This document shows, piece by piece, positions 7,193 through 46,137 of a DNA stretch of 46,878 nt. Source of the stretch: a virus; the IMG/VR virus record IMGVR_UViG_3300033145_000493, positions 1-46,878 of that record; one strand, given 5' to 3'. The translations under genes and the position numbers were made by a program. The first letter of the stretch is position 1. The number at the start of each line of letters is the position of its first letter. The notes beneath the pieces were generated by a model that made no database searches, was not told where the DNA came from, and was given only the letters and a program-made list of their open reading frames with translations.

Positions 7193-8721
7193 ACATACCT
7201 CCAGTTGGACATAGGTTCTTCGTAATCAAGTTCTTTATACTCAGATTCTATATCCTGAGGATTTTCCTTAGGTGAGAAATAACGCTCACCTAACTCAAGC
7301 ATTTCAATTATATAAGCTTCAGCATCCATAATATCCCAGAGTCTAGAACGTGGAAACATAAGAAGTTGGGATTCAAGCTTCTTAATATTCGGACAGGAAG
7401 CATTGTGATAGATGTAGCCTTGACGATAGTAAGGCACAAGTTCCTTCACACGAAGTTCTTTCTTCATTCCCCCACGAGTTTTAAGCCAGATAAGTTCAAA
7501 AAACTTCCCTCGTTTAAACATTTCGTTTTTTATAGGTTGTTTGATAAACTCGTTGAGTGAAGTCTCTTCAACACCTAATACTTTCGCATCTAACCGTATC
7601 CCCATCTCAAACATAGCATCATAAAGTTCATCAGGGTAGAATTTCTCTGATACAATGTCTCGTATATAAAGCCGTGCATTGTTTAGGTCAATGCCAATAC
7701 CTATGATTGCACTCTCAGCTGAGTGAAGTTTGACAGTTTTAGCAGGGTCAACAATTACTACATTTTCAATATTTTTGTCATTTTGGATATCAGCATCTGT
7801 TTTCTTCAGGTCATTTTCTCTAACTTGGTCTTCCCTTGTATGCCCATAGTAGCGGAAGTAGTCTTTTTGAAATGCAGCATCTTTAGTTGAGATAGGTAAG
7901 TTTCTAAGCTCCCTAAAAAATACATCTGTCATACCTGCATCTGAATGGTCTTTCCATTCTTTAGCAATGTCTTCATTAGACATAAATCCAGGCGCTACTG
8001 ATCTGAAGTTGTCGTCACACGCTTCGAGACGTATACTTGCCCAGTCAGGTGCATCAAGGAGATTCTGGATTAGGGCATCTTCATGTTTTAAGGTGTCTAT
8101 ATACACTATTTTCCAATCCTTATGAAGCCTAGGAACTGCCTTAATTACATCTGCATAGAGCCAATTCTTACGTTTTGCCCTTATCACTTCACCTTCGATT
8201 GTCTCAGGGTCTTCAAGATCATCTATGACGATTAGGCCTGGACGAGAGTTTTTGAATAGAACTCCACGCACCTGTTGGCCAGAACCCCTTGGCAAAACAA
8301 ATGTATCGTAAGCTACCCAAGCTTTCTTGCTGAAGCTTTCATCAACCTCATCTCGCTTAACTCCTCGTGGACGTATAGGGCCGAAGAACTGCTTGATGGC
8401 TCTGTTGGTTGTAAGTTCACGTCTTAAGTTTTCAGTCTGTAAAGCAGCAGCATCATGAGACATGTTTATGTAAACTATAAACTCACACTTTCTAAACAGT
8501 ATATACCTCGCAATTAGGGCAAGAGCTACAATGGATGTCTTACCCCAACCACGAGGAGCTGCGATGGCTACTTTATTTGCTTTTCCGTCGATAAGATCAA
8601 ATATCTTATCATGGACGTTTTCAGCAAAGGGTACATAAAAGCGCTCAGGGAAGAATGTTAGAGCTGTAGCCTTAGTACTTATTGAGCAAGTTGAAAGTAT
8701 TTTGGTTAGTTGAGAGTTCAT
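7189..8721 (-). CDS. terL: terminase large subunit
   Basis: A 510-residue ATP-driven DNA-packaging motor with nuclease. Walker A is APRGWGKTS at 55-63, Walker B is LIVIDDLED near residue 165, and the C-terminal RNase-H-fold nuclease begins with VIVDPAKT near 325. Its start overlaps the stop of the tailspike gene (TAATG). It is separated from the small terminase by about 6.5 kb of glycan-modification and tailspike genes, which is an unusual order. Identification rests on the ATPase and nuclease motifs. Confidence 0.93.
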   Translation of the reverse strand: MNSQLTKILSTCSISTKATALTFFPERFYVPFAENVHDKIFDLIDGKANKVAIAAPRGWGKTSIVALALIARYILFRKCEFIVYINMSHDAAALQTENLRRELTTNRAIKQFFGPIRPRGVKRDEVDESFSKKAWVAYDTFVLPRGSGQQVRGVLFKNSRPGLIVIDDLEDPETIEGEVIRAKRKNWLYADVIKAVPRLHKDWKIVYIDTLKHEDALIQNLLDAPDWASIRLEACDDNFRSVAPGFMSNEDIAKEWKDHSDAGMTDVFFRELRNLPISTKDAAFQKDYFRYYGHTREDQVRENDLKKTDADIQNDKNIENVVIVDPAKTVKLHSAESAIIGIGIDLNNARLYIRDIVSEKFYPDELYDAMFEMGIRLDAKVLGVEETSLNEFIKQPIKNEMFKRGKFFELIWLKTRGGMKKELRVKELVPYYRQGYIYHNASCPNIKKLESQLLMFPRSRLWDIMDAEAYIIEMLELGERYFSPKENPQDIESEYKELDYEEPMSNWRYV

Positions 8722-11141
8722 TAGTTTGCGCTTCTTGAAAGTTCGTGCCAGTTTGTTCCATTACAGAATAATAATATAGTATCTCCGTCAGTAGCACTAA
8801 AATTTCCTGCCAATTTTAAATTATTACCATCTGTTACTGTTAAGGTATCATTAAATTTTAAAAGAATTTTTCTACCACTAAGAGAATCAGCGGCAGCGAT
8901 TGAAGTTATTCCCGTATTACCTGTTATATTGAAAATTTCCCCTTCATCAGGTAAATTCAGTTCTGCTGCTGAGGCTACATCAATATACGGCTTATAAACT
9001 GTTCCGCCATAATAATGTATTGCTTTTCCTGAATTATCAGTAATTGCACCAGATTGATTATATAAATCAATGTATGTTGAATTGGCATCTATAGTAAGTG
9101 GCACATTAGAATTTCTAATTTCAAGATGATCAGCTCTAATTGTCATTGACTCGGTATCATTACAACCCTCGGCATACACGCCATCCATCGTTAGATAGTC
9201 AGGGCCAATACTCGATGTTTTTATGAGGTCAGCGGCAGATATAACAGCATTCATATCTTGAGCATTTATATTTCTAAGCGTTACATTTCTAACTTCAGCA
9301 AGTTCTATCCACCCGCCAGTATGTGCACCTGTTGTCCCAACCGCTTGCACCTCAAAATTTTCTATATTGATACCCATGGAACTTAACTGTACTAAAATAG
9401 TGGCTTTACTTGAAGCTTCATCTCCACCTCTTGCAACATTCATTCCTCTTAGAGTAAAACTTCTGACAGGTAAGCCTGTATCGCCAACTGTTATTACATT
9501 TACGCTATGAGAATGCTCGCAATTATATTTGGATATTAAAATATTTCTCCCACCTTTGAAAGCAACTCCACCATTATTACCGTTTTGTATCTCAGAACTC
9601 ATGCTATTAATCAGTATACCCGAACATGAAATAAACTCCATGTCATCCCAAACTGTTCCACCATATACACCCAATTTGGTTATATTGAAGTTGTGAATTT
9701 CATTAAAATACCCATTTCGAGTATTATCTACTAATCGCACATTGTTTATAATAGCTGCTGTTGAATTTTTAAAATACAGGGCTGCGTCAGTATCGGTAGT
9801 CGCTACGCCACCATTATTTTGAACCCTTAAATTTCTAATCTCAACAATAGATGGAGTATCCAGATAAATAACAGCGCCAGTTTTAGAATTTCCATCTAAA
9901 GTCATATTTTCTATACGTTGACGAGTAAAATAAGAATCGACTTTAATTAAATCAATATTAGCATTCTTTTTTATAGTAGTGTTATCAATAGAACTACCAA
10001 TAAAGCATACCTTCCGACCATTATTAACAATTCCTGTAGTGCACAAATAAATACCAGGTTTGAAATAGATAATTCCTCCTCCACCCAACTCTTTTTGTAC
10101 TCCTGCTGCTGGGATAGAATTAATAGCAGCTTGGATGGCAGAAGAATCGTCGTGAGAATTATCTCCCAAAGCTCCCCACCACTGGGGATAAACTTTTTTC
10201 ATTACACCTTTGCCAAAAGCAACACTCCCATCTCCACTAAACACCTGATAAAGTCCAGCAGAGAAAGGGCCGTTGATGGTGAGAGAGGCAGTTGTATCTA
10301 TGTCAAAAACATTAGATGCAGCATCAACTGAACCAACTAAAGTTAGGTCAACTCCGGCAGGGAGAGTTAACTTTCCACCAGGAATGATTTTAATATTTTC
10401 GTTGGCAGCAGACGCAACCGTTGCTTGAACATTACTATCTTCATTAACAATGATAGTTACTTCTTCATTCTCAACCCAAGTGAGGACATCTGAAAGTTGA
10501 TTAAACCAGTTGAGTTTAAGTTCAGCTCCATCAAGGAAGTCAAGGTCTCCAGCGCCTGCGAAGATTTGGAAGTTCCCTGCTTCAATGTTCTTGAGGTTGC
10601 CTACAACAACTCCAGCATCGACTGTAAGGATATTGCCAGGATCTTCCCACTTAAGATGGACATCATTTCCAGGTGAATAGTTTGCAGTAATTGTCTGAGG
10701 TTTAGATACTACAAGTGTTATCTCATCATTTGTAGTTAAGGCAAAAGCTGTTTCGATATTGGAGAACCAACCTGTTTTGACAACTGACCCTGCAGCGAAA
10801 TCTATATTGCCTGTGCCTGTAAAGATTTGACGATTAGGTGCTCTGATGTTCTTTGTGTTGAGGGTTAGTTGCCCTGAATTTGTAATAGAACCATCTCTGT
10901 CAAATTCAAGTGTAATATTAGATGGGACTGTCAAGGTTGTTACAACTTGCGGTGAGACAATCTTGATGGTTCGCTCGTTAGCACCAACTGCATCTATTGC
11001 ATCATTGAGAGTTTCATAAGCACGAGAATCTGTCCAGATGGCGTTTGATGAAGTTACGATTATATCTGAGAAGAATTCTGCATTTGCAGGAGATGTAATG
11101 AGAGTGATTGTTAAGATTAATGAAAGTATGAATTTTTTCAT
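8721..11141 (-). CDS. tailspike, pectate-lyase-type depolymerase with signal peptide
   Basis: About 806 residues. I place the start at the ATG encoding MKKFILSLILTIT, because AAAGGAAAGG lies just upstream; an in-frame ATG 57 nt earlier has no ribosome site. The first 21 residues form a Sec signal peptide with an ANA cleavage site. Imperfect repeats follow (QIFTGTGNIDF, QIFAGAGDLDF, QVFSGDGSVAF). Next is a parallel beta-helix domain of the pectate-lyase-3 type, starting at QWWGALGDNSHDDSSAIQA and containing GGGGIIYFKPGIY. The C-terminus is a small beta domain. Such proteins bind and cleave host surface polysaccharide. A cleavable signal peptide on a virion protein is odd. Confidence 0.85.
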   Translation of the reverse strand: MKKFILSLILTITLITSPANAEFFSDIIVTSSNAIWTDSRAYETLNDAIDAVGANERTIKIVSPQVVTTLTVPSNITLEFDRDGSITNSGQLTLNTKNIRAPNRQIFTGTGNIDFAAGSVVKTGWFSNIETAFALTTNDEITLVVSKPQTITANYSPGNDVHLKWEDPGNILTVDAGVVVGNLKNIEAGNFQIFAGAGDLDFLDGAELKLNWFNQLSDVLTWVENEEVTIIVNEDSNVQATVASAANENIKIIPGGKLTLPAGVDLTLVGSVDAASNVFDIDTTASLTINGPFSAGLYQVFSGDGSVAFGKGVMKKVYPQWWGALGDNSHDDSSAIQAAINSIPAAGVQKELGGGGIIYFKPGIYLCTTGIVNNGRKVCFIGSSIDNTTIKKNANIDLIKVDSYFTRQRIENMTLDGNSKTGAVIYLDTPSIVEIRNLRVQNNGGVATTDTDAALYFKNSTAAIINNVRLVDNTRNGYFNEIHNFNITKLGVYGGTVWDDMEFISCSGILINSMSSEIQNGNNGGVAFKGGRNILISKYNCEHSHSVNVITVGDTGLPVRSFTLRGMNVARGGDEASSKATILVQLSSMGINIENFEVQAVGTTGAHTGGWIELAEVRNVTLRNINAQDMNAVISAADLIKTSSIGPDYLTMDGVYAEGCNDTESMTIRADHLEIRNSNVPLTIDANSTYIDLYNQSGAITDNSGKAIHYYGGTVYKPYIDVASAAELNLPDEGEIFNITGNTGITSIAAADSLSGRKILLKFNDTLTVTDGNNLKLAGNFSATDGDTILLFCNGTNWHELSRSAN

Positions 11142-11157
11142 TAGCTTATTTCCTTTC

Positions 11158-11180
11158 CTTTGTTTATTTATTAAACGAAG
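11158..11180 (-). promoter_or_regulatory. dispersed palindrome, copy 4
   Basis: Half-sites CTTTGTTTA and CTTCGTTTA. It lies 16 nt upstream of the tailspike start and overlaps the last codons of the upstream glycosyltransferase gene, so the element was kept even where it had to be coding sequence. Confidence 0.85.
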
Positions 11181-12792
11181 CAACACTTGCATTAGCAATT
11201 CTCGTTCGCCAGTTAGTACCTCGAATAAATTGTTTATTTACTCTTCCTTGTTTTAATTGTATTATTTTATTGTCCTGATTCTTTTGAGTCTCAATTGGTT
11301 CTATAAATTCATCATGTTCATATATAGTGTTACTCCTATTTCCACCATGAACTACCATATAAACATATGATGGAGGAATTGTAATGACATTTGAGAATAA
11401 AGATCCCATTCGTAAATGGAAGTTGGCATAAAGATTTATACGTGGTTCTTCTTTTTGAACTAATACTATAAATGGACTGGTCCTAGCTTTAACATGAGGT
11501 GCGTAGAATTTATACAGTCGTCCGTCGGGAGCTTGACCAATCACTTGGTAATTGATTAAAAAGTGGGATGTAGGAGTGTTATCTGCTAAATATTTCATAT
11601 GAGAAACCCATCCAGGAACAACCCAATCATCGTTATCAAGTCTAGCCATTATTGAAGTTTTAGGTAAGTCCAAATTTTTAACTATGTTTTCAGGACTACC
11701 AAGATCTGCTTCCCTTCCCCAACATTTAGATACAGAGACTGATTTCTCCCATTCAGAAGTATCTCCACTAGTATAGATAAATTCTACATTTAAATCTCCC
11801 CAATCTAAACTTTGTATCTTTTTAGTCGCTATATTACCTTCAGCACCTGTTACTACACAAACTTTAAAGTTTTGATCTATTTGATTCTTAAGACAGTTTA
11901 TGAAATTTCTTTGCATTAAAGATATACGTCCAAGATCTAACACTCCTATTTTGGGAAGAATCCCTAAATTATTGTATATAGCCCTAGTAATTATAGTGGT
12001 ATCAGGCCACCTATGTTTTGGAACTATTCTATTTCTAGGGAAATACATACAAGAAAATCCCCATTTGGATTCAAATAGTTCACGTCCTTGCTGAATGATA
12101 GGATTTTTTGTTTTATCTTTAATGTAGTTTTCTGTTCTGCTTGAATGATCATTATTAGCTATTAGGTCTTTATCAACTATAGTAGCAATCTTCCATCCAG
12201 CTTTCCTTACATTCATACTCATATCGAAGTCCCAAGAACCAATGCAGTAACGAGTATCAATGATTTTAGGGATTGAAGCGACCTTTGTGCGAATTAATAT
12301 AGACGTTCCTCCAGTGAGATCTATGTCTACTATATGAGGAGAGGTATTATAATTTACTGGGGTACAGATAACTTTAGTGCCTTTTACTCTTCGATGGTAA
12401 AGTAATTCATTAAAAACAACATCTACCATGCCATAAGTAGAGTTTTTAGGGTTAGTTAAAAATTCAAATTCTCGATCTATAGTATTCTTAGCATAATCCA
12501 TATCATTGTCAGAAATGAAGATGAAAGGAGTCTTATTTATCCGTCTAAATTGTTCAGCACGGGGAGGAGCTATTCCTATATTTCCTTCAGTGAAATAGAT
12601 GTCTTTTTCTATAAAATCAGAAGCAGCATTAATAATATCCTGTTTTACATTATCAGAGATTTGTTCCTCACCTTGTACATGGAGGCAGAGGTTTAGTGGT
12701 AGAGATGTAGTTTTAGGAATATCGATTAAAGTTTTTATTAATCTATCTTCCAATAACCAAGATACAATAGCAACTGTAATTTGAGGCATCAT
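11164..12792 (-). CDS. two-domain glycosyltransferase
   Basis: A 542-residue protein. The N-terminal half starts TVAIVSWLLEDRLIKTL and contains FISDNDMDY (about 94-102), a GT2/GT-A-type nucleotide-sugar site. The C-terminal half has LMQRNFINCLKNQI and IMARLDNDDWVVPGW, the DxDD pattern seen in putative rhamnosyl-transferase-like GT-A proteins. It would move sugars from a nucleotide donor to a glycan or protein. It follows the methyltransferase gene by 3 nt and precedes the tailspike, within a four-gene carbohydrate cassette. The acceptor is unknown. The palindrome before the tailspike overlaps its stop. Confidence 0.75.
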   Translation of the reverse strand: MMPQITVAIVSWLLEDRLIKTLIDIPKTTSLPLNLCLHVQGEEQISDNVKQDIINAASDFIEKDIYFTEGNIGIAPPRAEQFRRINKTPFIFISDNDMDYAKNTIDREFEFLTNPKNSTYGMVDVVFNELLYHRRVKGTKVICTPVNYNTSPHIVDIDLTGGTSILIRTKVASIPKIIDTRYCIGSWDFDMSMNVRKAGWKIATIVDKDLIANNDHSSRTENYIKDKTKNPIIQQGRELFESKWGFSCMYFPRNRIVPKHRWPDTTIITRAIYNNLGILPKIGVLDLGRISLMQRNFINCLKNQIDQNFKVCVVTGAEGNIATKKIQSLDWGDLNVEFIYTSGDTSEWEKSVSVSKCWGREADLGSPENIVKNLDLPKTSIMARLDNDDWVVPGWVSHMKYLADNTPTSHFLINYQVIGQAPDGRLYKFYAPHVKARTSPFIVLVQKEEPRINLYANFHLRMGSLFSNVITIPPSYVYMVVHGGNRSNTIYEHDEFIEPIETQKNQDNKIIQLKQGRVNKQFIRGTNWRTRIANASVASFNK

Positions 12793-12795
12793 TAA

Positions 12796-13299
12796 TCAAA
12801 AACTCCATACATAAATTAAACGGTTTTGGATAGGTATTACTTTAACTGGGGTAATATTAGATGTCCATCGACTTATATCATCTTTTGAAACATCGTGTGT
12901 TTTATCACCTTTCCATTTATAAGGAAATGATAAAATAGCATTGTGACTTATTCTTCTTACTTCTTTAAATGCTTCAATTTGATTAGTTAAATGCTCCCAT
13001 ACCTGAAGAGCTATAAACAAGTCAAATTGTTTATCTTTTATTGGATAAGGAACAATATTCAAATTGTGGATTATTTCCTTATGTCCTGAATTTTTGAATT
13101 CTAATTCTATAATAGTTGAATTATTAAGTAGATACATACCCTCTGACCCAGCCTCGCATACTGAAGAAGGCTGAAGAATTTTTATTTCGTTAGCTACTAG
13201 ACTCATATAGTCCCATCTACTCCAAGTCTTACGAGGGGCATAGTAAGGAAGGGATTTAGCCAATCTGTTATACTCTGATTCGGTTAGTAAATTTTTCAT
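12796..13299 (-). CDS. class I SAM-dependent methyltransferase-like protein
   Basis: About 167 residues from the ATG at 13299, one base after the stop of the preceding gene. An ATG at 13368 would overlap that gene and also lacks a ribosome site. Visible landmarks are VCEAGSEGMYLL (motif I-like), ELEF (end of strand 2) and FDLFIALQVWEHLTNQIEAF (motif IV with the VxEHL of small-molecule methyltransferases). Motif I is weak, with no GxGxG. It probably methylates a sugar or glycan, given its glycosyltransferase and sulfotransferase-like neighbours. The substrate is inferred only from context. Confidence 0.7.
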   Translation of the reverse strand: MKNLLTESEYNRLAKSLPYYAPRKTWSRWDYMSLVANEIKILQPSSVCEAGSEGMYLLNNSTIIELEFKNSGHKEIIHNLNIVPYPIKDKQFDLFIALQVWEHLTNQIEAFKEVRRISHNAILSFPYKWKGDKTHDVSKDDISRWTSNITPVKVIPIQNRLIYVWSF

Positions 13300-13300
13300 T

Positions 13301-13795
13301 CTATTTAGTCTGATTCCATCTAAAATCCTTACGGTCTTTGATGAATAAAGGATGTTCTTCCAAGTCATTGAAGTTAATTTCTTTAGCTCTTTTACCTAAA
13401 ATAGGTCTCTGTATATTACTCCAGAAGTTGTACTTTATCTCAGAAATTATTCCATCTGTATAACCATATTTTATGAGTTCTATTCTTTCTGAATCTTTAT
13501 CCCAAATTCGTTGTTCTGAAGCTATGATATCATCTATATTTCTACGAACTACTATTACTAAGGTATCCTCTCTTTCTATTCCATGTAGCATATGACAAAG
13601 CCCAGGACATTGAATTACTACTTGACCTTTTTGTAGATAATATTGGAGGAGTCTGAAATCATGAAAGTTTATATATTTTTCATCTATGTAACTCTTTCCT
13701 GTATCTTTAACCATAATCTTTGCAGCTATACGTGTACCGGAGCGTTGAGGGCCAGAGATTATTATGTTACTGGATTTTTTTAAGTGTTTGAACAT
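13301..13795 (-). CDS. sulfotransferase-like P-loop protein
   Basis: A 164-residue protein with a 5'-phosphosulfate-type loop, SGPQRSGTR at 14-22, and a 3'-phosphate-type helix, VVRRNIDDIIASEQRIW near 100-116. This is the arrangement of PAPS-dependent sulfotransferases, though the protein is short for the family. A generic P-loop kinase is an alternative. It begins directly after the GT2 stop and ends one base before the methyltransferase start. In context it may sulfate a sugar built by the neighbouring glycosyltransferases. Confidence 0.62.
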   Translation of the reverse strand: MFKHLKKSSNIIISGPQRSGTRIAAKIMVKDTGKSYIDEKYINFHDFRLLQYYLQKGQVVIQCPGLCHMLHGIEREDTLVIVVRRNIDDIIASEQRIWDKDSERIELIKYGYTDGIISEIKYNFWSNIQRPILGKRAKEINFNDLEEHPLFIKDRKDFRWNQTK

Positions 13796-14794
13796 TTAAT
13801 TATTCCAAGGTTGAGTTTTTAGAAGTTCTTCAAACGTCATTACTTTGTGTTTATCAAGCCAGAGTTTTTCCTTCTTACCATATTGTATAGCTTCAGTCCA
13901 CCACTTATAGACATTTATGAAGCGGCCAAAGCGTTCAGTGATTGCTTTTCTGTTACGAAGCATCATTGCTTTCCCACCGAGAATGTAACAGGAGACGAGG
14001 AAGCCTATGGCATGAGGGCCTTCGCCACTTCTACTCCAGAGGCGATATTTATCTTGGCCGACAGTTACTATGTTAGGGTTCTTTCCATTGACGTCAGATT
14101 TAGGAAAAGGGCCTATATGAATTGCAGGGGAGGTTGGCACAGCCCAGTTTTTAAATCCTAAGAGCCAGGGTTTGATTCCTATGTGCATGTCTCCTCCGCC
14201 CCAGGAGAGTCTGTGGTCACTTAAAGCACCATAACCTCCAAGGCCTTTTTCTTTATCTAAGAACCAATCACGGCGACAGATCCAGGGCATGCCTTTCCAA
14301 GTTATTGTTCGTGGGTGGTCGTAAGCAGTGCCCCAGTCTCCTAATTCATTAACTGACATATCACGATCATGGCGAGAACGTGAAGAATGCTGGTGTGCCC
14401 AGTTGATTGGAGCGTGGGCGAAGCCAAGGATTTTGTCATCTTCTTTAGAGTCCATGAAATTGACTAAGTCGAGGATCATGTCTCTTCCAATTATCATATG
14501 AGAGTCAACGCAGATGATGTAAGGAGCTTTAGCATGCTTTATTGCTGTTTCTCGTGCAGTGAAAAGGCAAGGGAAGTTCTGGCGATATACTCTTATTAGG
14601 CCATCTTCTATGTATTTAGCAGGAATTATTGAGCTTAAGCGCTTGTAGATTTCAACATCTGAATTGTCGCAGATGACTATTTCACCGTTTCCTTCACCAA
14701 GAGGTTTTAGTTCTTCAATGCAGGAACGGATAGTTACAGCAAGCATTGCTGTATCATTGCGATTGGAGATAATGATTGATACTTTTGGCTTCAT
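13796..14794 (-). CDS. GT2 family glycosyltransferase
   Basis: A 332-residue protein with a clear GT-A fold signature. It begins KPKVSIIISNRNDTAMLAVT, has CDNSD at about 47-51 and the metal/donor motif VDSHMI (DxH, as in GalNAc-type transferases) near residue 98. A late acceptor segment reads SWGGGDMHIGIKPWLLG. It transfers a sugar from a nucleotide donor. The gene starts 5 nt after palindrome copy 5, whose AAAGGG end is the ribosome site, and is the first of the four-gene glycan cassette. Confidence 0.82.
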   Translation of the reverse strand: MKPKVSIIISNRNDTAMLAVTIRSCIEELKPLGEGNGEIVICDNSDVEIYKRLSSIIPAKYIEDGLIRVYRQNFPCLFTARETAIKHAKAPYIICVDSHMIIGRDMILDLVNFMDSKEDDKILGFAHAPINWAHQHSSRSRHDRDMSVNELGDWGTAYDHPRTITWKGMPWICRRDWFLDKEKGLGGYGALSDHRLSWGGGDMHIGIKPWLLGFKNWAVPTSPAIHIGPFPKSDVNGKNPNIVTVGQDKYRLWSRSGEGPHAIGFLVSCYILGGKAMMLRNRKAITERFGRFINVYKWWTEAIQYGKKEKLWLDKHKVMTFEELLKTQPWNN

Positions 14795-28094: not shown

Positions 28095-28406
28095 ATGACT
28101 AATGAAGAATTCTTGATTGAAGTAGAAAATTCACACAACAGAAGTAAGAAAATCCTAATCAAAAAAGGCATAGAGTATTCAAGTGGGAGAGATAGATTAG
28201 GACAATTCTACAGAGCTGGGGCAGTGCAAGCAATTTCATCAACTGAGGCACTTATTGGTATGGCCACTAAACATTATACTTCGATTGCAGATATGGTAAA
28301 AGATCCATTCAAATACTCTATAAAAGAATGGAACGAAAAGATAACCGACCTTCGTAATTATACTTATCTTCTGGACGCACTTATTAGAGATATGGGAGTT
28401 AAATAA
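28095..28406 (+). CDS. nucleotide-modification-associated domain 1-like protein
   Basis: A 103-residue helical protein with the layout HNRSKKILIKKGIEYSS, then DRLGQFYRAGAVQAISSTEA, then KHYTSIADMV, and EKITDLRNYTYLLDALI at the end. This matches the DUF1599 group, called nucleotide-modification-associated domain 1 in surveys of phage base-modification systems, which resembles all-alpha NTP pyrophosphatases. It overlaps the dCMP deaminase start by one base. It may act on the nucleotide pool. Confidence 0.72.
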   Translation: MTNEEFLIEVENSHNRSKKILIKKGIEYSSGRDRLGQFYRAGAVQAISSTEALIGMATKHYTSIADMVKDPFKYSIKEWNEKITDLRNYTYLLDALIRDMGVK

Positions 28407-28870
28407 TGACTTGTCTTAACTCTAACAACATCAGATGGGACACTTATTTTCACTCTATATGTTGCGCAGTCGCTTCAAAATCCCCTTGCCTGAGCCGTCA
28501 GATTGGGGCAATACTTGTTAGAGACAAAAGTATTGTCTCAACCGGCTTCAATGGGCCTGCAAGGGGCTATGACCACTGTGAAATTCAGTGCCCTAGAAAA
28601 GTAATGGGATTTAAATCTGGTGAAGGTTTAGTTCATTGCCCAGCTGCTCATGCTGAAGGAAATTGTGTAGCAAATGCTGCCCGTATAGGTGCATCTACTA
28701 TTAATACTACATTATATATGAACTGTATTATACCTTGCAAAGATTGTATGATATTACTTGTCAACGCAGGCATTAAAGAAGTTGTCGTAGATGACATAGA
28801 AAATTACCACGAGATGTCTATTAACATAGCTAAAAAAGGCAACATAAAAATAAGGAAATTTGAACTATGA
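28406..28870 (+). CDS. dCMP deaminase
   Basis: A 154-residue cytidine-deaminase-fold protein. Zinc and catalytic residues are in AAHAEGN (His82, Glu84) and PCKDC (110-114). Residues around FNGPARGYDHC fit deoxycytidylate deaminases with a second zinc loop. It converts dCMP to dUMP, feeding dTTP or modified-pyrimidine synthesis. No thymidylate synthase gene was seen here, so dUMP must go to host enzymes. It overlaps the next gene by 4 nt. Confidence 0.9.
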   Translation: MTCLNSNNIRWDTYFHSICCAVASKSPCLSRQIGAILVRDKSIVSTGFNGPARGYDHCEIQCPRKVMGFKSGEGLVHCPAAHAEGNCVANAARIGASTINTTLYMNCIIPCKDCMILLVNAGIKEVVVDDIENYHEMSINIAKKGNIKIRKFEL

Positions 28871-30129
28871 GGATATTGATTTTAGGAAGTGACGGTTACA
28901 TTGGATGGCCTTTGTCCCTTCATCTACTGAAAAAAGGCCATGAAGTAGCTGGCCTTGATTCATTAGTTAGAAGAAAAAGGGTAGAAAAATGTGGGTCTAA
29001 TTCACTTACACCAATACACACTGCAACGAATAGAAGAATATACTCCAGAGAATATTCAAACTATATCAACGAGATTATGAATATTCCTTTAGGTATCTGG
29101 AAGCCATTTATTATAAGGAATGTTTTGAAAGAAATAAAACCTGACACTATAGTGCACCTGGCCGAACAGCCTTCAGCGCCCTGGAGTATGATAAATCCTG
29201 AGAAGGCATCTGAGACCCAACTTCAGAATGTCATAGGGACACTTCATCTTCTTTGGGCAATGAAAGAGATTTGTCCTGAAGCACATTTAGTTAAACTAGG
29301 GACGATGGGAGAGTATGGAACACCTAGTTGTGATATACCTGAGGGAGAAATCCCTCCTTTTCCATGTAAATATATCAGTAAAAGAGAGGATACATCTAAT
29401 ATGGAATATACTGAGGCCAAGAAGAATGTACTTGAAAATTATTCAGTTGAAAATGAGATGTATGAATTAGGTATGATCTGTCCTATGTCTGGCTTACCTT
29501 TTCCTAAATCTCCTGGAAGCTTCTATCACTTATCAAAAGTCCATGATACTAATAACATCATCTTCGCCTGCAAAACCTGGAACCTACGCTCAACTGATAT
29601 TATGCAGGGTATAGTGTTTGGAGTTAAAGTAACTGGTGAGGAGTCTGAAAGGGAACTAACTCGCTTTGACTATGATCAGTACTTTGGCACAGTTATCAAT
29701 CGCTTCTGCACCCAAGCTATCATTGAACATCCTTTGACAGTATATGGATCAGGTAAACAGACAAGAGGTTTTCTGCCTTTAAAAGACAGCATTCAATGTC
29801 TGACACTTACTATAGAAAATCCACCTAAGATTGGTGAGTATAGGGTCTTTAATCAGTTTGAAAATACTTACATGATAAAAGGTTTAGCAGAACTAGTAGC
29901 GAAAGCTGCTCAAGAATTAGGTCTGAACGTAGAAATATCTCATCTAGACAATCCCCGAGAAGAGAAGGAAGAACACTACTACTACCCAAGCCATCAGAAA
30001 CTATTTGATTTAGGTTATAAACCTACAGGAGATATCTATAGAGAAATCTTGAATCTCTTAGAAGACATAATTCCTTATAAAGACAGGGTGATTAAAAAAG
30101 TAATAATGCCAACTACAAAATGGAGGTGA
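28867..30129 (+). CDS. UDP-sulfoquinovose synthase homologue (SQD1/SqdB type)
   Basis: A 420-residue extended SDR enzyme. The NAD-binding loop GSDGYIGW is at 7-14. Diagnostic SQD1 blocks are LVKLGTMGEYGTP (141-153, Thr146), GSFYHLSKVHDTNNI (217-231, Tyr220 and Lys224), FDYDQYFGTVINRFC, HPLTVYGSGKQTRGFL, EYRVFNQFENTY and EEHYYYPSHQKL. The family makes UDP-sulfoquinovose from UDP-glucose and sulfite. The usual EQRSAPYSMI here reads EQPSAPWSMI, and residues about 160-216 hold a longer insert than I recall in plant SQD1. It overlaps dCMP deaminase by 4 nt, so it is an integral operon member. Confidence 0.9.
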   Translation: MRILILGSDGYIGWPLSLHLLKKGHEVAGLDSLVRRKRVEKCGSNSLTPIHTATNRRIYSREYSNYINEIMNIPLGIWKPFIIRNVLKEIKPDTIVHLAEQPSAPWSMINPEKASETQLQNVIGTLHLLWAMKEICPEAHLVKLGTMGEYGTPSCDIPEGEIPPFPCKYISKREDTSNMEYTEAKKNVLENYSVENEMYELGMICPMSGLPFPKSPGSFYHLSKVHDTNNIIFACKTWNLRSTDIMQGIVFGVKVTGEESERELTRFDYDQYFGTVINRFCTQAIIEHPLTVYGSGKQTRGFLPLKDSIQCLTLTIENPPKIGEYRVFNQFENTYMIKGLAELVAKAAQELGLNVEISHLDNPREEKEEHYYYPSHQKLFDLGYKPTGDIYREILNLLEDIIPYKDRVIKKVIMPTTKWR

Positions 30130-35983: not shown

Positions 35984-36364
35984 ATGGAAAGAGAGATACT
36001 GGAACAGTTGATAACCGAAGGGAAGATTTCAAAGGAAGATGTAGTGAGGATAGAGGATTCTATAATAACCCCTGAGAAGGAAAGAGTAATAGACCTCTTT
36101 CATAATATAATATGTGAGAAGAACCACGACAGCGAAGAATGTCTTTGGTATGTTGAATGTCAGGCTAAAGATACATGGAAGGAACTTCACCACGCTAAGT
36201 GGACTAGGCTTATATCGGATAAGTTAAGGTTTCTAAATATAGATTTTCTAGAGGCTGAAAAACTTGCACTCCAATTCCATCGTATGGTGTCACATACAGG
36301 AGAAAAAGCAGCTGTAAAAGAACTAATCCTATTCCTTCTCTCTTCTGATCTTTCTAAGCTCTGA
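35984..36364 (+). CDS. last early gene, 126 residues, unknown
   Basis: It starts after AAAGGAGGCACA. The protein is acidic and helical (EREILEQLITEGKISKEDVV), with a Cys/His-containing middle (CEKNHDSEECLWYVECQ). Its 3' end overlaps the convergent ejection-protein gene by 36 nt, and no terminator lies between the arms. No family was recognised. Confidence 0.65.
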   Translation: MEREILEQLITEGKISKEDVVRIEDSIITPEKERVIDLFHNIICEKNHDSEECLWYVECQAKDTWKELHHAKWTRLISDKLRFLNIDFLEAEKLALQFHRMVSHTGEKAAVKELILFLLSSDLSKL

Positions 36365-39300
36365 CCAGAAACTATCTGTGAAGAATCCTCCAGCTTTAGT
36401 TACGGTTCTTTTTTCTTTCATTAGTTGTTCATGCTCTTTAGGGCTAGCATTTTTTAATCTATCATAGTATCTGCTAGCCCTAATTTCAGGAGCTAGACCC
36501 CTGAGACGAAGCCAGAAAGAACGCTCAGGAAGATTTTTTATATCAACTTGGAAGTCAAATCTTTCTCTTAGACGCTTTCGAGTATCTGGGTCCTTAAATG
36601 ATTTGTAGTACTTAACTACATCTTCTCTTTTGTATGCTTTCTCAAACAAGTATCCATCGGTAAGTCTGTCTAATTCTCTGTTTTGAACCCACCTTTCTAA
36701 TACATGTACTTCCTCTTCTTCTTCTATCTTCTTAGCATGTTTTGAATAAGGATTAGTTACAAAAATAAACCTACCAATTATAGGTGCCTTCTTTAATGAT
36801 GTAATAATTTTACCCATTGCATTTATCTTCTGTTTCTTAGTAAAAGCTTCTGCCCATTGCTGTTCCACTTTTTCCTTAGGAACATCTGCAAATAACTTTT
36901 CATAACCCTTACCCATTAAATAAGCCCAGGTAGAATTACTGGTTACTAATTCCTCTGCAGCATGCTGTCCTCGCTCTGGAGAGATACCAGTATATTTTCC
37001 TACATCTATAAAGAACTCTGAAGTCTTTCCAGGGATAAGTTCTTCTTTTGACCTAGGATATGTAAATGGCTTAGTCTTTTTCCAAACATCTTCATTTCTC
37101 CAAAGATCTTTATTATAAAGATAACCAATAGCGGCTGATACTGTAGGAGGCATACTAGACACACCTACTGGAGAAAGCTCAAGCATGTTATTAGTTATTC
37201 TATCTATATCCACTTCATATCCCATAGACTTATCATAGGCAGCATCAAAGAATGCTTTGAAAAATTTCTGGCCTGGGTCTAAAGGAATTTTAAATCCCCA
37301 GTATCTTTTCTGGCCTCTCTCATCTTCAAAAGCAAAATTATCTCCTGCAGGAATGCATAGATTATTTTGTAGATCCATAGATCCTTGTAATGCTTTCGCT
37401 GTCTCCGGACATTGTTCTCTCATAGCTGAATAAACTAGTGTAGTAGCAAGTCCAATTTCAGCGGTCTTATACACAAACTCCTTAGGATTATCTTTCGCAG
37501 TCCTCCATAAACCCCTTGTTGCTTGAACAGCTGCATTTAAATAAGGGAGAGCATTATCAGCTGCCTTTGTCATCCCTCCACCCTGACCAAAGTCCATGTA
37601 GTCTCTAGCAACAAAGCTAGCCTCACGCTGAATGTCTTTATTTTTCCTGGCTTCTTCAACTGTCAAACCTTGCTCTTTTGCCCTTCTTCTGATCACCCTT
37701 TCTTTAAGAGCAACTCTTGTTGTAAGTTCAGAAGTCTCACCGAACCAGCTTAAAATCTTTAAATGTTTAGCTAGTCCAGGTTCTAAATGTTTTCCTTTTC
37801 TAAGCATCAGCCCTTGGTGGACTAGAAATTCCATACCTCCACCATAGTCGAAGTATTTCTGAGTTTTCTTCCCTCTAACGACAACATCTGGGAATACTCT
37901 TGCAATGTCCATCCCTATCTGAGGTAAAAATATTGGTAGATGAGGACTGTATGCACTCTTCCACTGTCCATCTTCCCATACTCTTGCAGCATAATAGATA
38001 TGCATTATATCTTTTGGGAGGTTAGCCAATGCAAATCCCCACTCAATTCCAGTAGCAAGGGTACGAAGTAGTGCTGTACCAGATAGCCATTGGATAATCC
38101 TTCCATATTTATAAGGTAATTCAGAACTACTAGCCAACCATTCTTTACTCATCTTCGGAGAAATATAAAGGGCTTTCCTTTTACCTTTATCAAACACAAA
38201 TATTCTCTGCCATCCAGAAGGGATACCAGTCTCACCTTCTACATACGATCTAACAAACGGATTCTTAGGATCACTTACAGACAGATCAAGTAATGCTTTA
38301 TTTGCTTCTTGTCTAGCAATACGACCATAGGAACGATTGAATACTTCCAATGCCATAATCTCTGAACTAGGTTCATATATGTCTGTCTTCCTTCCTCTGG
38401 CTAACTCTTGGACACCAGAGTCATAGACAGTAAGGGGCTTTCTGCCTACCTTTGATTCATACTCTTTATCGAAAATATCTACTAATTCAATTCTACGGTA
38501 TTTATGCTTAATCAAATCATCGTATTCAGTTTGAGATATTAACTCAGCTTCAAGCATATCTTTCAATGGCTTCTTCATCCATTCAAAGTAGCCGTCTACT
38601 CTATTACGAATAATCTCTGCACGTTTAGGTGATATACCTTCCATCTGAGGAAATGTTTCTATATAACTTATAGCGATAGATGGAGTTAACTGCTTACCGC
38701 TTTTCTTATGTATAGGCCAGTTGAACTCTTTAACTGTTTTAGCTTTAGCTATATCAAGTAGTCTTGTGTACATTACTAGATTATCTAATACATGCCTCTC
38801 ACTTGTTCTAAGTCCAGCATAAACTTCCTTCTGCATTTGCTTTAATTTATTTGCAGCTATGGTATTAGCACCTTTGGTAAGTACTAACTTTTGAACTGTT
38901 TCATACCCTTTAAAACCCATATAGTCAATAAAGTCCCATTTGATGTTCCCACTTTTATCGACGAACTCACGGATAAATTCTTCATAGTTTTCTTTAATAG
39001 TCTTAATTCTTTTCATCTTCCGAGCGTCGTCCATGTATTCTTTAGCAATCTTAGCACCTTCAATTATTGCTTTTGTTGCTTTATCAACAGGAATTCCTGT
39101 ATAGAGTTTAATCCCTGACTTAGTCTTACTAATTAATGACTTATCTAAAATAACAGTCCATTTACCGGCGGAGTCTATATTAACTGCGTCATACCCTTGC
39201 TCTTTCAATACATTAGTTAATTCAACAGCTATATCCCCTGGCCTCCAATCAGTGTCAGTTACCTTAGCCCTTTTAGTAGCTTCTTTATTTGCCCTGATCC

Positions 39301-41500
39301 ATACAGAGTCAGTACTTTTTATAGGCTCAAATAGTATATCAGACTCATGCATTATTGGAAGTTCTTCGTCTATTACGTTAAGAGGTTTTTTAGGTTTTTT
39401 ATATACTACCTTCTTTACTTCCCCAAAACCCTCTGCTAGTTTTATGTCCCTTGTAACATAGAGACCAACCCCTTCAGATGCAGCTTCATGGCCTATCTCA
39501 GGGTTCCATGGAGATACTTCTCCTCTAAAAGCTTCAATCTCCCCTCTTCGTTCAATTTTTAAACGGAGTGGTTCAATCTTCCTCGCCCATTCCGCTGCTT
39601 CACTAACTGTTTCTTTCCAAGCTCTGAAATCTGCAGGGTTATCAAAAGTAAAATTAAACTCATCTGCCCTTGTAGCGAACTCACTTAGGTCATTTCTAAC
39701 TTTATTAATATCTATACTCTTATCTCCGTGATAAGATCTATTGACATCATTGATTAGTTTTTGAGTAGCAACTTCGACATCTACAATATTCCTACCTTCA
39801 TAAACCTTAGCCATTGTTTCAGCCTTTTCTTTAGTCTGAAAGAAAGGACTTTTCTCACCTTCAAGCTCAGGGATTGAGACTCCTGTTTGACGATCTAATT
39901 CAGTGATAGGTTCTGGTTCAATCTTAGGGTGCTTAGCTTTTTTCTTAATTGTAGGAAATTTAATAATATCTCCGGATTCAATTTCTAGCCTACCCTCCCT
40001 TAGTAATCCTTTGCCTTTTACAAACTCTAAGGCAGACATTTCTCTGAGACCATTATCTAAACCTTCTACATTTTCAAGATAGTTATAACCTCTATTAAAT
40101 TCTCTAAGTGCTTCTTTCCCTCCAACACTTTCAACATAATCCTTTATACCCGATAGTATATCAGGCTTTCCCTTACCACTATGTATGATTCCTCCTGTCT
40201 TTCTATATAGATTATCATATAGTGTCAGGGTATTCTCTGTATAATGATTTACAGGAATTCCTTCTACATTTATAGTACCCTGCGTATCAATTAGTACATC
40301 CCCTTTTTTAAAAGGGACTTGTACTTTCTTAGGTTTAGTTATTTCAATAACTTTCTCTTCTTCAAAAACCTTCTCAATCTCAGCCTGTCTTTCCTCGGCT
40401 GTCCTCAATCCACTTTTAACATCTTCAACCTCCTTACCTTTTTCTCTAAGTTCCTCCTTAACTACTTTTTCTATATCAGCATTTTTCTTAATATCTTCAG
40501 CAATCTTCTTAGCCTCAAGTTCAAGTTGTTGCTTTTCCATTTCAAGAATCTTCTTCTGTGCAACTTTAACTGCACCTTCAAGGCTCTGATCAACTAACAT
40601 TTCTGTTTCAGCAATCTTCTCAGCTTTCTCAGCTACATCTTTAACATCTTTAATTACACTTCTTTCAACCCCCTTAACCTCACCAGGTTTACCTCTATAC
40701 ACTTTATGCAATCCAGCAAGCCCTGCGAAGAACCCAGCAAACTTGAGTGCGCCTCTAATGTTATCTTCAGTAACAAACACCTTGTCCAACCAGAGTTTCT
40801 TAGCTACCTTAGCAACTGTTTTTATTTTCTCGCTTTCAGCAGCTGCCATGAATGGAGCTTCAGCTACAGTCATAGGAACCATTGCTATCTCACCAACTAA
40901 CTCTGGATCTACATCCTCAGGACAGCCAAGAAGTAGTTCAGATAAAGTATCTCCAAACGCACCTTTAAACGCTTTCCTAGGAAGCTCTAGAAAACCTTCA
41001 ACCTTCTCTTTCCCAGGCTGCATATACTCACTGACCTTAACAAATCCTCTTTCTGCTGCATCTGCCATATCCAAAAGGTTCGAATGTCCAGCTATGAGTT
41101 GTGGGAGTTCTTTATTCATCTCACTAACTGCACCTCCTACCCCAAGTATAAATGTAGGAATTCCAGCCATTATGAAACTACCTGCACCTTTAGCTACGTC
41201 ATAAGGCTGACCAGCTAATGTAGCAACTTCCCCAACAGATTCCATAAATGAGTCTTTATTCTCTTGTGAGAACATTTCAGTTTCAAGAACATCAAACTCC
41301 TCTTTTGACATACCGAGAGATGCCTTCACACCTTTCATTTGAATATCGAGAATAGATTGAGGTTTAGGCTCAGGGGCAGGAGCTTCAGTTGCAGGCTTGA
41401 TCTCGCCCAAGACTTTTTCAAAGGGATCTTTTTCCTCTACCCCATCACCTAATAAGCTTTCAAACTTGGAGTCTCTATCTAATATAGCTTCAAAATCCAT
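36329..41500 (-). CDS. giant polyvalent ejection protein with ART-like and LPD38-like segments
   Basis: A 1723-residue protein, the last gene of the late arm, where T7-like phages place gp16-type internal proteins. Residues 80-260 contain hydrophobic or amphipathic stretches (GSFIMAGIPTFILGVGGAVS) and about 270-390 a long coiled coil. Residues about 655-790 look like an ADP-ribosyltransferase: EAFRGEVSP, then GVGLYVTRDIKLAEGFG, then EQGYDAVNIDSAGKW. Near 1150, ATGIEWGFALANLPKDIM matches large polyvalent protein domain 38. Such proteins enter the host with the DNA; the transferase may modify host targets on entry. Confidence 0.8.
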   Translation of the reverse strand: MDFEAILDRDSKFESLLGDGVEEKDPFEKVLGEIKPATEAPAPEPKPQSILDIQMKGVKASLGMSKEEFDVLETEMFSQENKDSFMESVGEVATLAGQPYDVAKGAGSFIMAGIPTFILGVGGAVSEMNKELPQLIAGHSNLLDMADAAERGFVKVSEYMQPGKEKVEGFLELPRKAFKGAFGDTLSELLLGCPEDVDPELVGEIAMVPMTVAEAPFMAAAESEKIKTVAKVAKKLWLDKVFVTEDNIRGALKFAGFFAGLAGLHKVYRGKPGEVKGVERSVIKDVKDVAEKAEKIAETEMLVDQSLEGAVKVAQKKILEMEKQQLELEAKKIAEDIKKNADIEKVVKEELREKGKEVEDVKSGLRTAEERQAEIEKVFEEEKVIEITKPKKVQVPFKKGDVLIDTQGTINVEGIPVNHYTENTLTLYDNLYRKTGGIIHSGKGKPDILSGIKDYVESVGGKEALREFNRGYNYLENVEGLDNGLREMSALEFVKGKGLLREGRLEIESGDIIKFPTIKKKAKHPKIEPEPITELDRQTGVSIPELEGEKSPFFQTKEKAETMAKVYEGRNIVDVEVATQKLINDVNRSYHGDKSIDINKVRNDLSEFATRADEFNFTFDNPADFRAWKETVSEAAEWARKIEPLRLKIERRGEIEAFRGEVSPWNPEIGHEAASEGVGLYVTRDIKLAEGFGEVKKVVYKKPKKPLNVIDEELPIMHESDILFEPIKSTDSVWIRANKEATKRAKVTDTDWRPGDIAVELTNVLKEQGYDAVNIDSAGKWTVILDKSLISKTKSGIKLYTGIPVDKATKAIIEGAKIAKEYMDDARKMKRIKTIKENYEEFIREFVDKSGNIKWDFIDYMGFKGYETVQKLVLTKGANTIAANKLKQMQKEVYAGLRTSERHVLDNLVMYTRLLDIAKAKTVKEFNWPIHKKSGKQLTPSIAISYIETFPQMEGISPKRAEIIRNRVDGYFEWMKKPLKDMLEAELISQTEYDDLIKHKYRRIELVDIFDKEYESKVGRKPLTVYDSGVQELARGRKTDIYEPSSEIMALEVFNRSYGRIARQEANKALLDLSVSDPKNPFVRSYVEGETGIPSGWQRIFVFDKGKRKALYISPKMSKEWLASSSELPYKYGRIIQWLSGTALLRTLATGIEWGFALANLPKDIMHIYYAARVWEDGQWKSAYSPHLPIFLPQIGMDIARVFPDVVVRGKKTQKYFDYGGGMEFLVHQGLMLRKGKHLEPGLAKHLKILSWFGETSELTTRVALKERVIRRRAKEQGLTVEEARKNKDIQREASFVARDYMDFGQGGGMTKAADNALPYLNAAVQATRGLWRTAKDNPKEFVYKTAEIGLATTLVYSAMREQCPETAKALQGSMDLQNNLCIPAGDNFAFEDERGQKRYWGFKIPLDPGQKFFKAFFDAAYDKSMGYEVDIDRITNNMLELSPVGVSSMPPTVSAAIGYLYNKDLWRNEDVWKKTKPFTYPRSKEELIPGKTSEFFIDVGKYTGISPERGQHAAEELVTSNSTWAYLMGKGYEKLFADVPKEKVEQQWAEAFTKKQKINAMGKIITSLKKAPIIGRFIFVTNPYSKHAKKIEEEEEVHVLERWVQNRELDRLTDGYLFEKAYKREDVVKYYKSFKDPDTRKRLRERFDFQVDIKNLPERSFWLRLRGLAPEIRASRYYDRLKNASPKEHEQLMKEKRTVTKAGGFFTDSFWSELRKIRREKE

Positions 41501-43870: not shown

Positions 43871-45274
43871 CTATTGTCCCCTTGGAGGAGCTGCATAGAT
43901 TCCACGCAGGCCCCTTAAGTCAGTCATCTTCCATCTTGCAGTTATGTAATCTAAGTCCGCTGTACCCCTAGCAAAGTCTGAGGACTTCACACAGATTCTA
44001 AATTCTGTCCCTGCAGCAATGATTGATGCTATACCCTCTAAATTAACAGGAACGAAATTAGTACGTTGGAAACCAACTGAGGAATTCATTCTCCAGTCAA
44101 TAGCTACTTCAGCATCAGTCATTGATGAAGCACCTAACTCAACAGAGAAGATAGTTTTCTGTCCTCTATATCCCATATCTATTACATGTGAAACTAATAA
44201 AGTCTCTATCGATCCACTTGGAGTCTCAGGTAAACCGCATAGTCCATAGCTACCCTCATCATCGTACCAGATGGCATTTACTGAGTTTGGATAGTTAGTC
44301 ATTCCATTAGGTGATAAGAGAAGACTCCTTACACCATCTGAGATGTAAAAATCTCCTTTGTATGAATTGAAGTTGACTATATTATCTCCACTGTTCAACT
44401 CTTCCAAATACTCAATATAACCAAGTTCCTTCAAACCTTCTTCACTCAGATGCCAGGCAGTGTTTTCAAGATCCACAAATACATGCTGTCTATAATCTCC
44501 ATTCATAGCCCCTCGGTTTTTGAGGCCTACTTTATGAATCTCTTTAAACCCAAAAGTTGCAGCAGGTGAAGTTACAGGATTCATTAAGGTAATCCCACCT
44601 GAACTGTAAACAACTACATTATTACCTAACCTTCGCACATGGTAGACTTCGCCACCAAAAGGATCACGACGAAAACCTGCCTCGTTTTTTCTATAAGGTG
44701 TAAAGTCAGCTTCACCAATCTTTGACCATACAATGAATTTCTCGTCGCAACTATGCCAATCACTTAGAACACAACCACCTATCATCTGACCTTTGAAATT
44801 GCATACAGTTCTCATCATAGGAATGTTTGCATGAACTGTCACTTCCTGCCAATCATTAATCCCTACGTCCCAATAGATCATAATAGCTCCATTGGTCATA
44901 AATGCGTAAGAACCAAAATCAGCAAGTTCCATTAAAGTCCCTTTACCATAAGTTAGTTCATCTATTACAAATATCTGTGTGGCAGTATAAGATGCATCAA
45001 GGGAATAGACTACATCCTCCATATTGGTAACACTATCCCGAACAATAAGAATTTTATATCTTTCTTGTTTGAGAAACTGAGGAAAAGGCCAATCGTAGTA
45101 TACATCAAGGGCTGATGGTAAAGGGTTACGAAGAGTCTCTATTCCTTCAATAGCCTTCTTACCAATCCTAAAGCCACTACATTCTTGTAGATATGAAGAG
45201 TTTCTAGGAATCCTAGCTTCAGGTTTTAGACCTTTCAATAAGGCCTCATCAATTATAGTATAGAATTCTCTCAC
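43871..45274 (-). CDS. tail nozzle/tubular protein-type, 467 residues
   Basis: A strand-rich protein with repeating blade-like segments (GSYAFMTNGAIMIYWDVG, NNVVVYSSGGITLMNPV, KGDFYISDGVRSLLLSPNG), as in beta-propeller tail nozzle proteins of the P22 gp10/T7 gp12 kind. It would complete the tail tube below the adaptor. It overlaps the preceding gene by 4 nt. The role is inferred from fold pattern and order. Confidence 0.72.
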   Translation of the reverse strand: MREFYTIIDEALLKGLKPEARIPRNSSYLQECSGFRIGKKAIEGIETLRNPLPSALDVYYDWPFPQFLKQERYKILIVRDSVTNMEDVVYSLDASYTATQIFVIDELTYGKGTLMELADFGSYAFMTNGAIMIYWDVGINDWQEVTVHANIPMMRTVCNFKGQMIGGCVLSDWHSCDEKFIVWSKIGEADFTPYRKNEAGFRRDPFGGEVYHVRRLGNNVVVYSSGGITLMNPVTSPAATFGFKEIHKVGLKNRGAMNGDYRQHVFVDLENTAWHLSEEGLKELGYIEYLEELNSGDNIVNFNSYKGDFYISDGVRSLLLSPNGMTNYPNSVNAIWYDDEGSYGLCGLPETPSGSIETLLVSHVIDMGYRGQKTIFSVELGASSMTDAEVAIDWRMNSSVGFQRTNFVPVNLEGIASIIAAGTEFRICVKSSDFARGTADLDYITARWKMTDLRGLRGIYAAPPRGQ

Positions 45275-45648
45275 TTAGTAGCCTCATTCATTTTATTAAT
45301 CTGATCTTGCATAGACTTTATATCCCAGTACTGTTTGTAATTCTTAGAAAACCAATCAGCATCTTCAGGATTATCAAATCGTATCAATTCATCTGTTTTA
45401 ATAGCATAATCAATAGCCTCTTTTTGTCCCAATCTTTTTAATTTCTTAGTATTTGAATCAAAAACTATTTCTGGATAAACAAAAGCACCTAAACCATCTT
45501 CAGCCCAGCTCATTAAATGTGTCGAAATTATACCTTTTCCTAAATCTGGTCTTGGCATACTTGGATAATTCTCTTTATTTAATATTCTATCAACAAAGTT
45601 TTTATCTTTGTTAGATTCAAGAATTTGTGTTAATGCTTCAGTATCCAT
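45271..45648 (-). CDS. late virion-associated protein, 125 residues
   Basis: Contains the run LKRLGQKEAIDYAIKTDELI and DNPEDADWFSKNYKQYW, a signature I associate with small unassigned proteins in tail/internal-protein clusters of podoviruses. N-terminal residues mention a PSMPRPDLGKG turn. It starts six bases after the previous stop. Function unknown. Confidence 0.65.
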   Translation of the reverse strand: MDTEALTQILESNKDKNFVDRILNKENYPSMPRPDLGKGIISTHLMSWAEDGLGAFVYPEIVFDSNTKKLKRLGQKEAIDYAIKTDELIRFDNPEDADWFSKNYKQYWDIKSMQDQINKMNEATK

Positions 45649-45654
45649 GATTAC

Positions 45655-46137
45655 TTATACCTCAGTCTTTTCTAAAGCATTTATTAAAAATGGTCTAATT
45701 TCAGAATCTTTAACTGCAGGAGTCCAGAGGAAAGCAATCCAGATTCCTGAAACACTCTCTTCCTTATTTACAGGAATAACTTTTATCACCATCCTATCTC
45801 CAACTTCAACATCTGTATCAGGATTCATTATGACAGATTGCCTTTTAGAGAATGTTGTTTTACTAATCTCTGCATCCCCTCGATGAATGATAGTCTGAAT
45901 ATTTATTCCGTTCTTAGGCATGCTGTCAATGAACATTCCACCTATGGTTATCTTACCGTTTGCAGAGAACATATAACGTAGGACAACATCATCTATTGGA
46001 GTTTCAGAATAGTTAGATATAGGAAAAGGAGTTATTACTCCAGTTACTGTTTTATGGAGGCGCCGAGAATAGGACTTGAGTATCCTATCCACATGATTCA
46101 TTTGTTTTTCTATAGTATCACCCTTTATCATCTTCAT
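45655..46137 (-). CDS. late structural protein, 160 residues, unknown
   Basis: A helical N-terminus (IEKQMNHVDRILKSYSRRLH) is followed by a beta-sandwich-like body (ANGKITIGGMFIDSMPKNGI, then VEVGDRMVIKVIPVNKEES). The form suggests a small tail or appendage protein. It starts 2 nt after the lipoprotein stop. No family was assigned. Confidence 0.65.
   Translation of the reverse strand: MKMIKGDTIEKQMNHVDRILKSYSRRLHKTVTGVITPFPISNYSETPIDDVVLRYMFSANGKITIGGMFIDSMPKNGINIQTIIHRGDAEISKTTFSKRQSVIMNPDTDVEVGDRMVIKVIPVNKEESVSGIWIAFLWTPAVKDSEIRPFLINALEKTEV

Follow-up and report, generated by a model that had tools for sequence, protein, structure and literature searches.

A phage genome record of 46,878 bp encodes an SQD1-type nucleotide-sugar enzyme, a putative UDP-sulfoquinovose synthase (28867..30129, + strand), whose presence among related phages is matched by that of a glycosyltransferase encoded elsewhere in the genome (13796..14794, - strand). 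By computation the enzyme belongs to the SQD1 family in sequence and fold, and its active site is intact apart from Arg101, a position that holds proline. We lean, with modest confidence, towards the view that the phage produces a UDP-6-sulfo-sugar, which is most likely UDP-sulfoquinovose, and that its own glycosyltransferase attaches this sugar, probably to a protein.

Family, fold, and genomic setting of the SQD1-type protein

The open reading frame at 28867-30129 (+) is intact, with an ATG start and zero internal stops, and encodes a 420-aa protein. Among curated families, the top match is NF041015, UDP-sulfoquinovose synthase (1.3e-146, 488.5 bits), whereas all remaining families score at most 43 bits. 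The match lies below the NF041015 curated cut-off of 575 bits; of the Synechococcus and Sulfolobus control genomes, a single one passed this cut-off, and since Sulfolobales-type matches score 625-690 bits, the cyanobacterial enzyme appears to fall short of it too. Sequence searches of the PDB returned SQD1 (1qrr, 1i24, and 1i2b; E 1e-107 to 1e-108) with the runner-up at 2e-12, and a Foldseek search with the AlphaFold2 model (pLDDT 91.7) returned SQD1 at E 2e-49 and TM 0.93, with GalE-type folds at 5e-21. These results bear out the SQD1/SqdB signature described in an earlier note on this DNA, as well as the match to plant SQD1 that it had proposed to check by structure prediction. Identity as a dTDP-glucose 4,6-dehydratase, GalE, or GDP-mannose dehydratase was not supported (at most 43 bits, and 16-20% identity in the fold matches), and HMM, structure, and tree agree in grouping the protein with SQD1, SqdB, and Agl3, apart from GalE, RmlB, and the enzymes acting on GDP-mannose.

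The catalytic residues named in the earlier note, Thr146, Tyr220, and Lys224, are all in place as counterparts of Thr145, Tyr182, and Lys186, and His97, Met147, Glu149, and Tyr150 are likewise found. Equivalents of His95, Met145, Tyr182, and Lys186, which are essential in Agl3 (PMC4388408), are conserved. The long insert reported earlier exists, at about residues 163-208, and is mostly private to this copy; its interpretation as a specialisation is not supported, as the nearest relatives are without most of it and part of it is predicted to be disordered.

The whole stretch of DNA analysed, hereafter the window, is an IMG/VR virus record and not a cellular contig, in agreement with the original description of the gene as phage-encoded. 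It encodes an SU10-type capsid, portal, terminase, Sak4 annealing protein, UDG-polymerase, and primase. ORF pieces at its two ends (3-671 and 46689-46877, both on the - strand) match a single 244-aa protein of the related record L013, which points to a probable circular permutation of a near-complete genome. Conserved throughout the lineage is a core protein of 1,723 aa (36329-41500, - strand), for which no family assignment is convincing.

Searches of an annotated phage collection found 0 SQD1 relatives among 50,697 records, and searches of annotated phages with GT2, the partner glycosyltransferase, and with the window DNA gave zero matches. A BFVD search returned, among the matches listed, only other epimerases at no more than 19% identity and no UDP-sulfoquinovose synthase. 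IMG/VR yielded 77 loci with SQD1 relatives, most of them in the window's own caudovirus lineage. The gene lies in the replication module, as first reported, in the lineage order Sak4 - (deaminase) - SQD1 - ParB/methyltransferase - polymerase - primase, while in L013 and L014 it is found in the head module instead. A polymerase-based sample indicates that it is an accessory gene carried by about half of the lineage. More distant copies occur in other phages, including records of 107-302 kb.

Three phage records of 107-150 kb (L156, L157, and L158) encode an SQD1-type ORF of about 719 aa (about 9119-11278), a length due to intein sequence inside it (TIGR01445 and TIGR01443 matches); the SQD1 alignment breaks right after KLG of the active-site KLGTMGEYG, where an intein-like CYDDKTEVL start is found, and more than one intein is possible. 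Polymerase gene matches span ~3.4 kb and not 2.5 kb in L106 (5867-9271), L247 (10001-13405), and L252 (4529-7960), suggesting that in some relatives the polymerase gene holds an intein or intron. In another phage group, a second SDR epimerase-like gene directly follows the SQD1-type gene (L132 11197-12108; L133 11194-12084).

The neighbouring dCMP deaminase gene (28406..28870, + strand; PF00383, 9e-19) overlaps the SQD1 start codon with its stop codon by 4 bp. The earlier note had described the two genes as tightly coupled; taken as a functional link, this coupling is not supported by the comparison of relatives: the deaminase occurs in 12 of 18 SQD1-positive and 8 of 10 SQD1-negative records, thus without co-variation, and among relatives its order varies or the gene is absent. 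In L012 (9857-11200), a Cys-rich zinc-ribbon-like N-terminus in frame with SQD1 resembles the deaminase ORF starts of L002 and L011, and could be what is left of a deaminase gene since lost.

The Arg101 position and sulfite-producing neighbours

The arginine of the EQRSAP motif (Arg101 in SQD1 and Agl3) is Pro102 in the window protein, giving EQPSAP. Agl3 with the R101A replacement is inactive (PMC4388408), and Arg101 is carried by AtSQD1, SqdB-type, and Agl3-type proteins and is invariant in the Arg-type groups that hold proven enzymes. Because a residue essential in a proven enzyme is missing, we describe the protein as SQD1-type and not as a proven synthase; its membership among proven UDP-sulfoquinovose synthases is not secure.

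The change from EQRSAP to EQPSAP was correctly recognised in the earlier note, but it is not a private specialisation. Proline occupies the Arg101 position in 165 retrieved relatives of viral, bacterial, and archaeal origin (one of the two patterns used to retrieve cellular loci contains Pro, so the Pro:Arg ratio is not a census), and its presence in cellular relatives rules out a virus-specific change. In a midpoint-rooted FastTree phylogeny, Arg-type AtSQD1, alphaproteobacterial SqdB-type, and Sulfolobales Agl3-type sequences form separate branches among the Pro-types. AtSQD1 has the Pro-branch residue at essentially all other columns that separate Pro- from Arg-types, so only the one site, Arg101/Pro, differs consistently. 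No convincing basic residue compensating for Arg101 was found, the candidate columns being basic in AtSQD1 too. Some archaeal Pro-types (in G006, G008, G009, L208, and L209) score above the NF041015 cut-off. The N-glycan literature on Nitrososphaerota, searched for a function of the Pro branch, yielded no sulfoquinovose data.

Members of the Pro branch adjoin sulfite-producing genes in four independent places, comprising two unrelated phage groups and two cellular genomes. In phage L149, a CysH gene scoring above the NF002537 and TIGR00434 cut-offs lies directly upstream of SQD1, and phage L148 shares these SQD1 and CysH matches. Phage L150 encodes an APS-kinase-like gene (below its own cut-off), SQD1, and then CysH, which overlaps SQD1 by 10 bp; the ECGIH motif is retained in both phage CysH proteins. 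The cellular genomes show the orders CysH-CysD-CysN-SQD1 (L065) and CysH-ATP-sulfurylase-SQD1 (L095). CysH-like genes are common in phages, and adjacency to CysH is therefore suggestive only. Together these neighbourhoods support sulfite as the second substrate, indirectly so for the window, which contains no sulfite-producing gene and whose host would thus have to supply sulfite.

SQD1-type genes are also enclosed by NeuB/NeuC/NeuA-like cassettes, in phages L127 (6544-11375) and L015 (92-3871) and in several bacteria, represented by the cellular loci L065, L075, L078, L079, L085, L088, L090, and L093, hinting at a sulfonated nonulosonic-acid-like sugar.

A glycosyltransferase that co-varies with the SQD1-type gene

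Thirty-one records of the lineage were read, the window included, of which 21 carry SQD1 and 10 do not; G381, an eleventh SQD1-negative record identified by search, lies outside this set. Co-variation was evaluated in 28 records for 57 gene families, each present in at least four records, after leaving out three SQD1-positive records in which the terminase region is absent or the record ends there. The glycosyltransferase gene GT2 (13796-14794) is present in all 18 SQD1-positive records covering the terminase region, compared with one of 10 SQD1-negative records (p=1.4e-6). It is the only one of the 57 families to track SQD1, the next family (p=0.037) being at about chance level for 57 tests. 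The association was recovered from polymerase-sampled records alone (p=7.6e-6) and with near-duplicates removed (2e-5).

On a six-gene phage tree built with FastTree, SQD1 shows 9 changes against a shuffled-label mean of 8.6, and GT2 shows 8. The two genes disagree at a single tip, G380, which is SQD1-negative and has kept a divergent GT2. Since SQD1 is scattered on the tree and GT2 matches it but for this tip, shared ancestry does not explain the match, and hitch-hiking is unlikely given that they belong to separate modules, lie some 14 kb from each other, and are encoded on opposite strands. Functional dependence of the two genes is the simplest account. None of 21 further phage records with SQD1 has a member of the partner GT2 family; the pairing of SQD1 with this glycosyltransferase is thus specific to the lineage. 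Gene-tree congruence (SQD1-core genome r 0.76, SQD1-GT2 r 0.46, and GT2-core r 0.36) suggests, without being decisive, that SQD1 was mostly inherited vertically with parallel losses and did not move by joint transfer.

The partner contains a GT2 Pfam domain (PF00535, 3e-12) and its curated match is generic GT2; the domain is present in 19/19 aligned members, with invariant DSH and WGGGD motifs. The best 31 Foldseek matches of the GT2 model are polypeptide GalNAc-transferases (including GalNAc-T2/T10), although at a TMq of only 0.52-0.66, and the surface-polymer transferase TarP is also a near fold match. A crude hydropathy scan gave no evident membrane helix, as would be expected of a soluble enzyme.

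The GT2 gene is encoded between the terminase genes (the terS-terL interval), beside other sugar genes and a tail spike. In the same interval, a sugar island that varies among records (11164..13795, - strand) separates GT2 from the spike and encodes, by weak Pfam matches, a P-loop protein, a methyltransferase, and a weak GT-like 542-aa protein, all possible accessory decoration genes. The adjoining tail-spike-like protein (8721..11198, - strand) has a pectate-lyase fold (PF12708, 4.8e-10; phrog tail fibre). In records with a more divergent GT2 (G351 44492-45917, equivalent to L323 4492-5914, and G360, G361, and G364), a NAD-dependent epimerase and a methyltransferase gene adjoin GT2, an arrangement suggesting further modification of the sugar in these phages.

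Candidate products and acceptors, and relation to known systems

An active SQD1-type enzyme would oxidise UDP-glucose with bound NAD, eliminate the 6-OH, and add sulfite to the resulting 5,6-ene, releasing a UDP-6-sulfo-sugar, most likely UDP-sulfoquinovose. We infer this sulfite chemistry for the window enzyme from the gene neighbours of its relatives and the known SQD1/Agl3 mechanism. The soluble, GalNAc-transferase-like GT2 would then move the sulfonated sugar from the donor to a cytosolic acceptor. As no other accessory family tracks the pair, this acceptor would be a core phage product or a host molecule; our guess is a core virion protein, with a host protein or DNA less likely.

Two alternatives concern the product. 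That the Pro branch adds no sulfite, and instead makes UDP-4-keto-6-deoxy-glucose, the 5,6-ene, or another deoxysugar for transfer by GT2, is in our judgement fairly unlikely: an Agl3-essential arginine is indeed proline throughout the branch and the fold is common to 4,6-dehydratases, but sulfite-producing genes lie beside four independent branch members, the SQD1 active site is otherwise preserved, and R101A Agl3 lost activity with no switch to another enzyme (PMC4388408). We find it unlikely that the Pro branch forms an enzyme class of its own, whose product is a different 6-sulfo-sugar nucleotide (made, for instance, from UDP-GlcNAc) destined in this phage lineage for a virion protein, and that in relatives (L065, L078, L079, L127, and L015) the product passes through NeuC-NeuB-NeuA-like steps to give a sulfonated nonulosonic acid; were this so, the virus particle would bear a sulfonated glycan and the sugar would be of a new class.

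For the acceptor, the earlier note had listed several possible uses (virion proteins, host surface glycans, host lipids, or phage DNA bases), and the partner gene narrows this list; we favour a virion protein. Transfer onto a host surface glycan, for receptor masking or superinfection exclusion in concert with the sugar island and tail spike, also seems unlikely. GT2 adjoins the sugar genes and spike, some relatives in cells and in phages L015 and L127 sit with NeuA/B/C-like surface-glycan genes, and TarP is a near fold match of GT2; however, by crude hydropathy GT2 has no evident membrane anchor, nor is it accompanied by an evident lipid-carrier transferase or flippase, and its best fold matches are protein-modifying enzymes. 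We give still less credence to decoration of phage DNA bases, for which one could cite the SQD1 gene in a replication module beside a dCMP deaminase, a polymerase with a UDG-like domain, and the apparently cytosolic GT2. Against this reading, the larger window ORFs include no recognisable thymidylate-synthase-like or hydroxymethylase gene, the deaminase shows no co-variation with SQD1, and GT2 is similar to GalNAc-transferases that act on proteins and is located among structural genes. Because the donor for sulfolipid canonically comes from SQD1, the phage might be thought to boost host sulfolipid (SQDG), altering membranes during infection or replacing phospholipid. This is the least likely target and a very improbable one: we recognised no GT4 of the SqdX/SQD2 type among the window genes, and a phage-encoded soluble partner, GalNAc-transferase-like and located between terminase genes, disfavours a host lipid.

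Attachment of a sulfonated sugar to a virion protein remains our preferred reading. A two-gene phage module, comprising a sugar-nucleotide synthase and a dedicated transferase gained or lost together, predicts a sulfonated sugar on a phage component and suggests that these viruses equip some target with their own sulfonated sugar. If true, this would link phages to the organosulfur pool and add a new way of decorating proteins or surfaces, one that might serve host recognition or defence evasion. The module would also reveal whether sugars are still sulfonated by SQD1 enzymes that lack Arg101.

The nearest named phage, the complete Desulfofustis phage LS06-2018-MD01 (OP947158), shares the replication-module order of the window and 47%, 44%, and 52% identity in polymerase, portal, and capsid, respectively, but searches of it found neither SQD1 nor GT2. 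MD01 is linked by CRISPR to Desulfofustis PB-SRB1, which belongs to a sulfate-reducing group in pink-berry consortia (PMC10370329). Sulfite would presumably be plentiful in sulfate-reducing hosts of this kind, and the window's host may differ. As far as we found, the only earlier viral homologue in the open literature is a putative UDP-sulfoquinovose synthase in a Mu-like virus from the Cariaco Basin (PMC7785012), a single gene observation for which the available text describes no partner transferase; a survey of AMGs across the global ocean is silent on the gene in its main text.

Polypeptide GalNAc-transferases (GT27) are comparable to the partner in predicted GT-A fold, at modest similarity, and in DxH and WGGx motifs, but share only about 15% identity with it; the partner is a generic GT2 Pfam match. 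Arabidopsis SQD1 and the cyanobacterial and alphaproteobacterial SqdB resemble the window protein in fold (TM 0.93), NAD motif, Thr-Tyr-Lys, and substrate-domain motifs. Unlike them, the window protein has Pro for Arg101 and a mostly private insert at about 163-208, and its gene is a phage accessory gene paired with GT2, with no sulfolipid synthase seen. Agl3 of Sulfolobus acidocaldarius, of the same family, makes UDP-sulfoquinovose for the S-layer N-glycan (PMC4388408). It differs in having and needing Arg101 and in serving lipid-linked N-glycosylation in archaea, but it offers the parallel that we propose for the phage enzyme, in which the product would be used for a glycan and not for a lipid.
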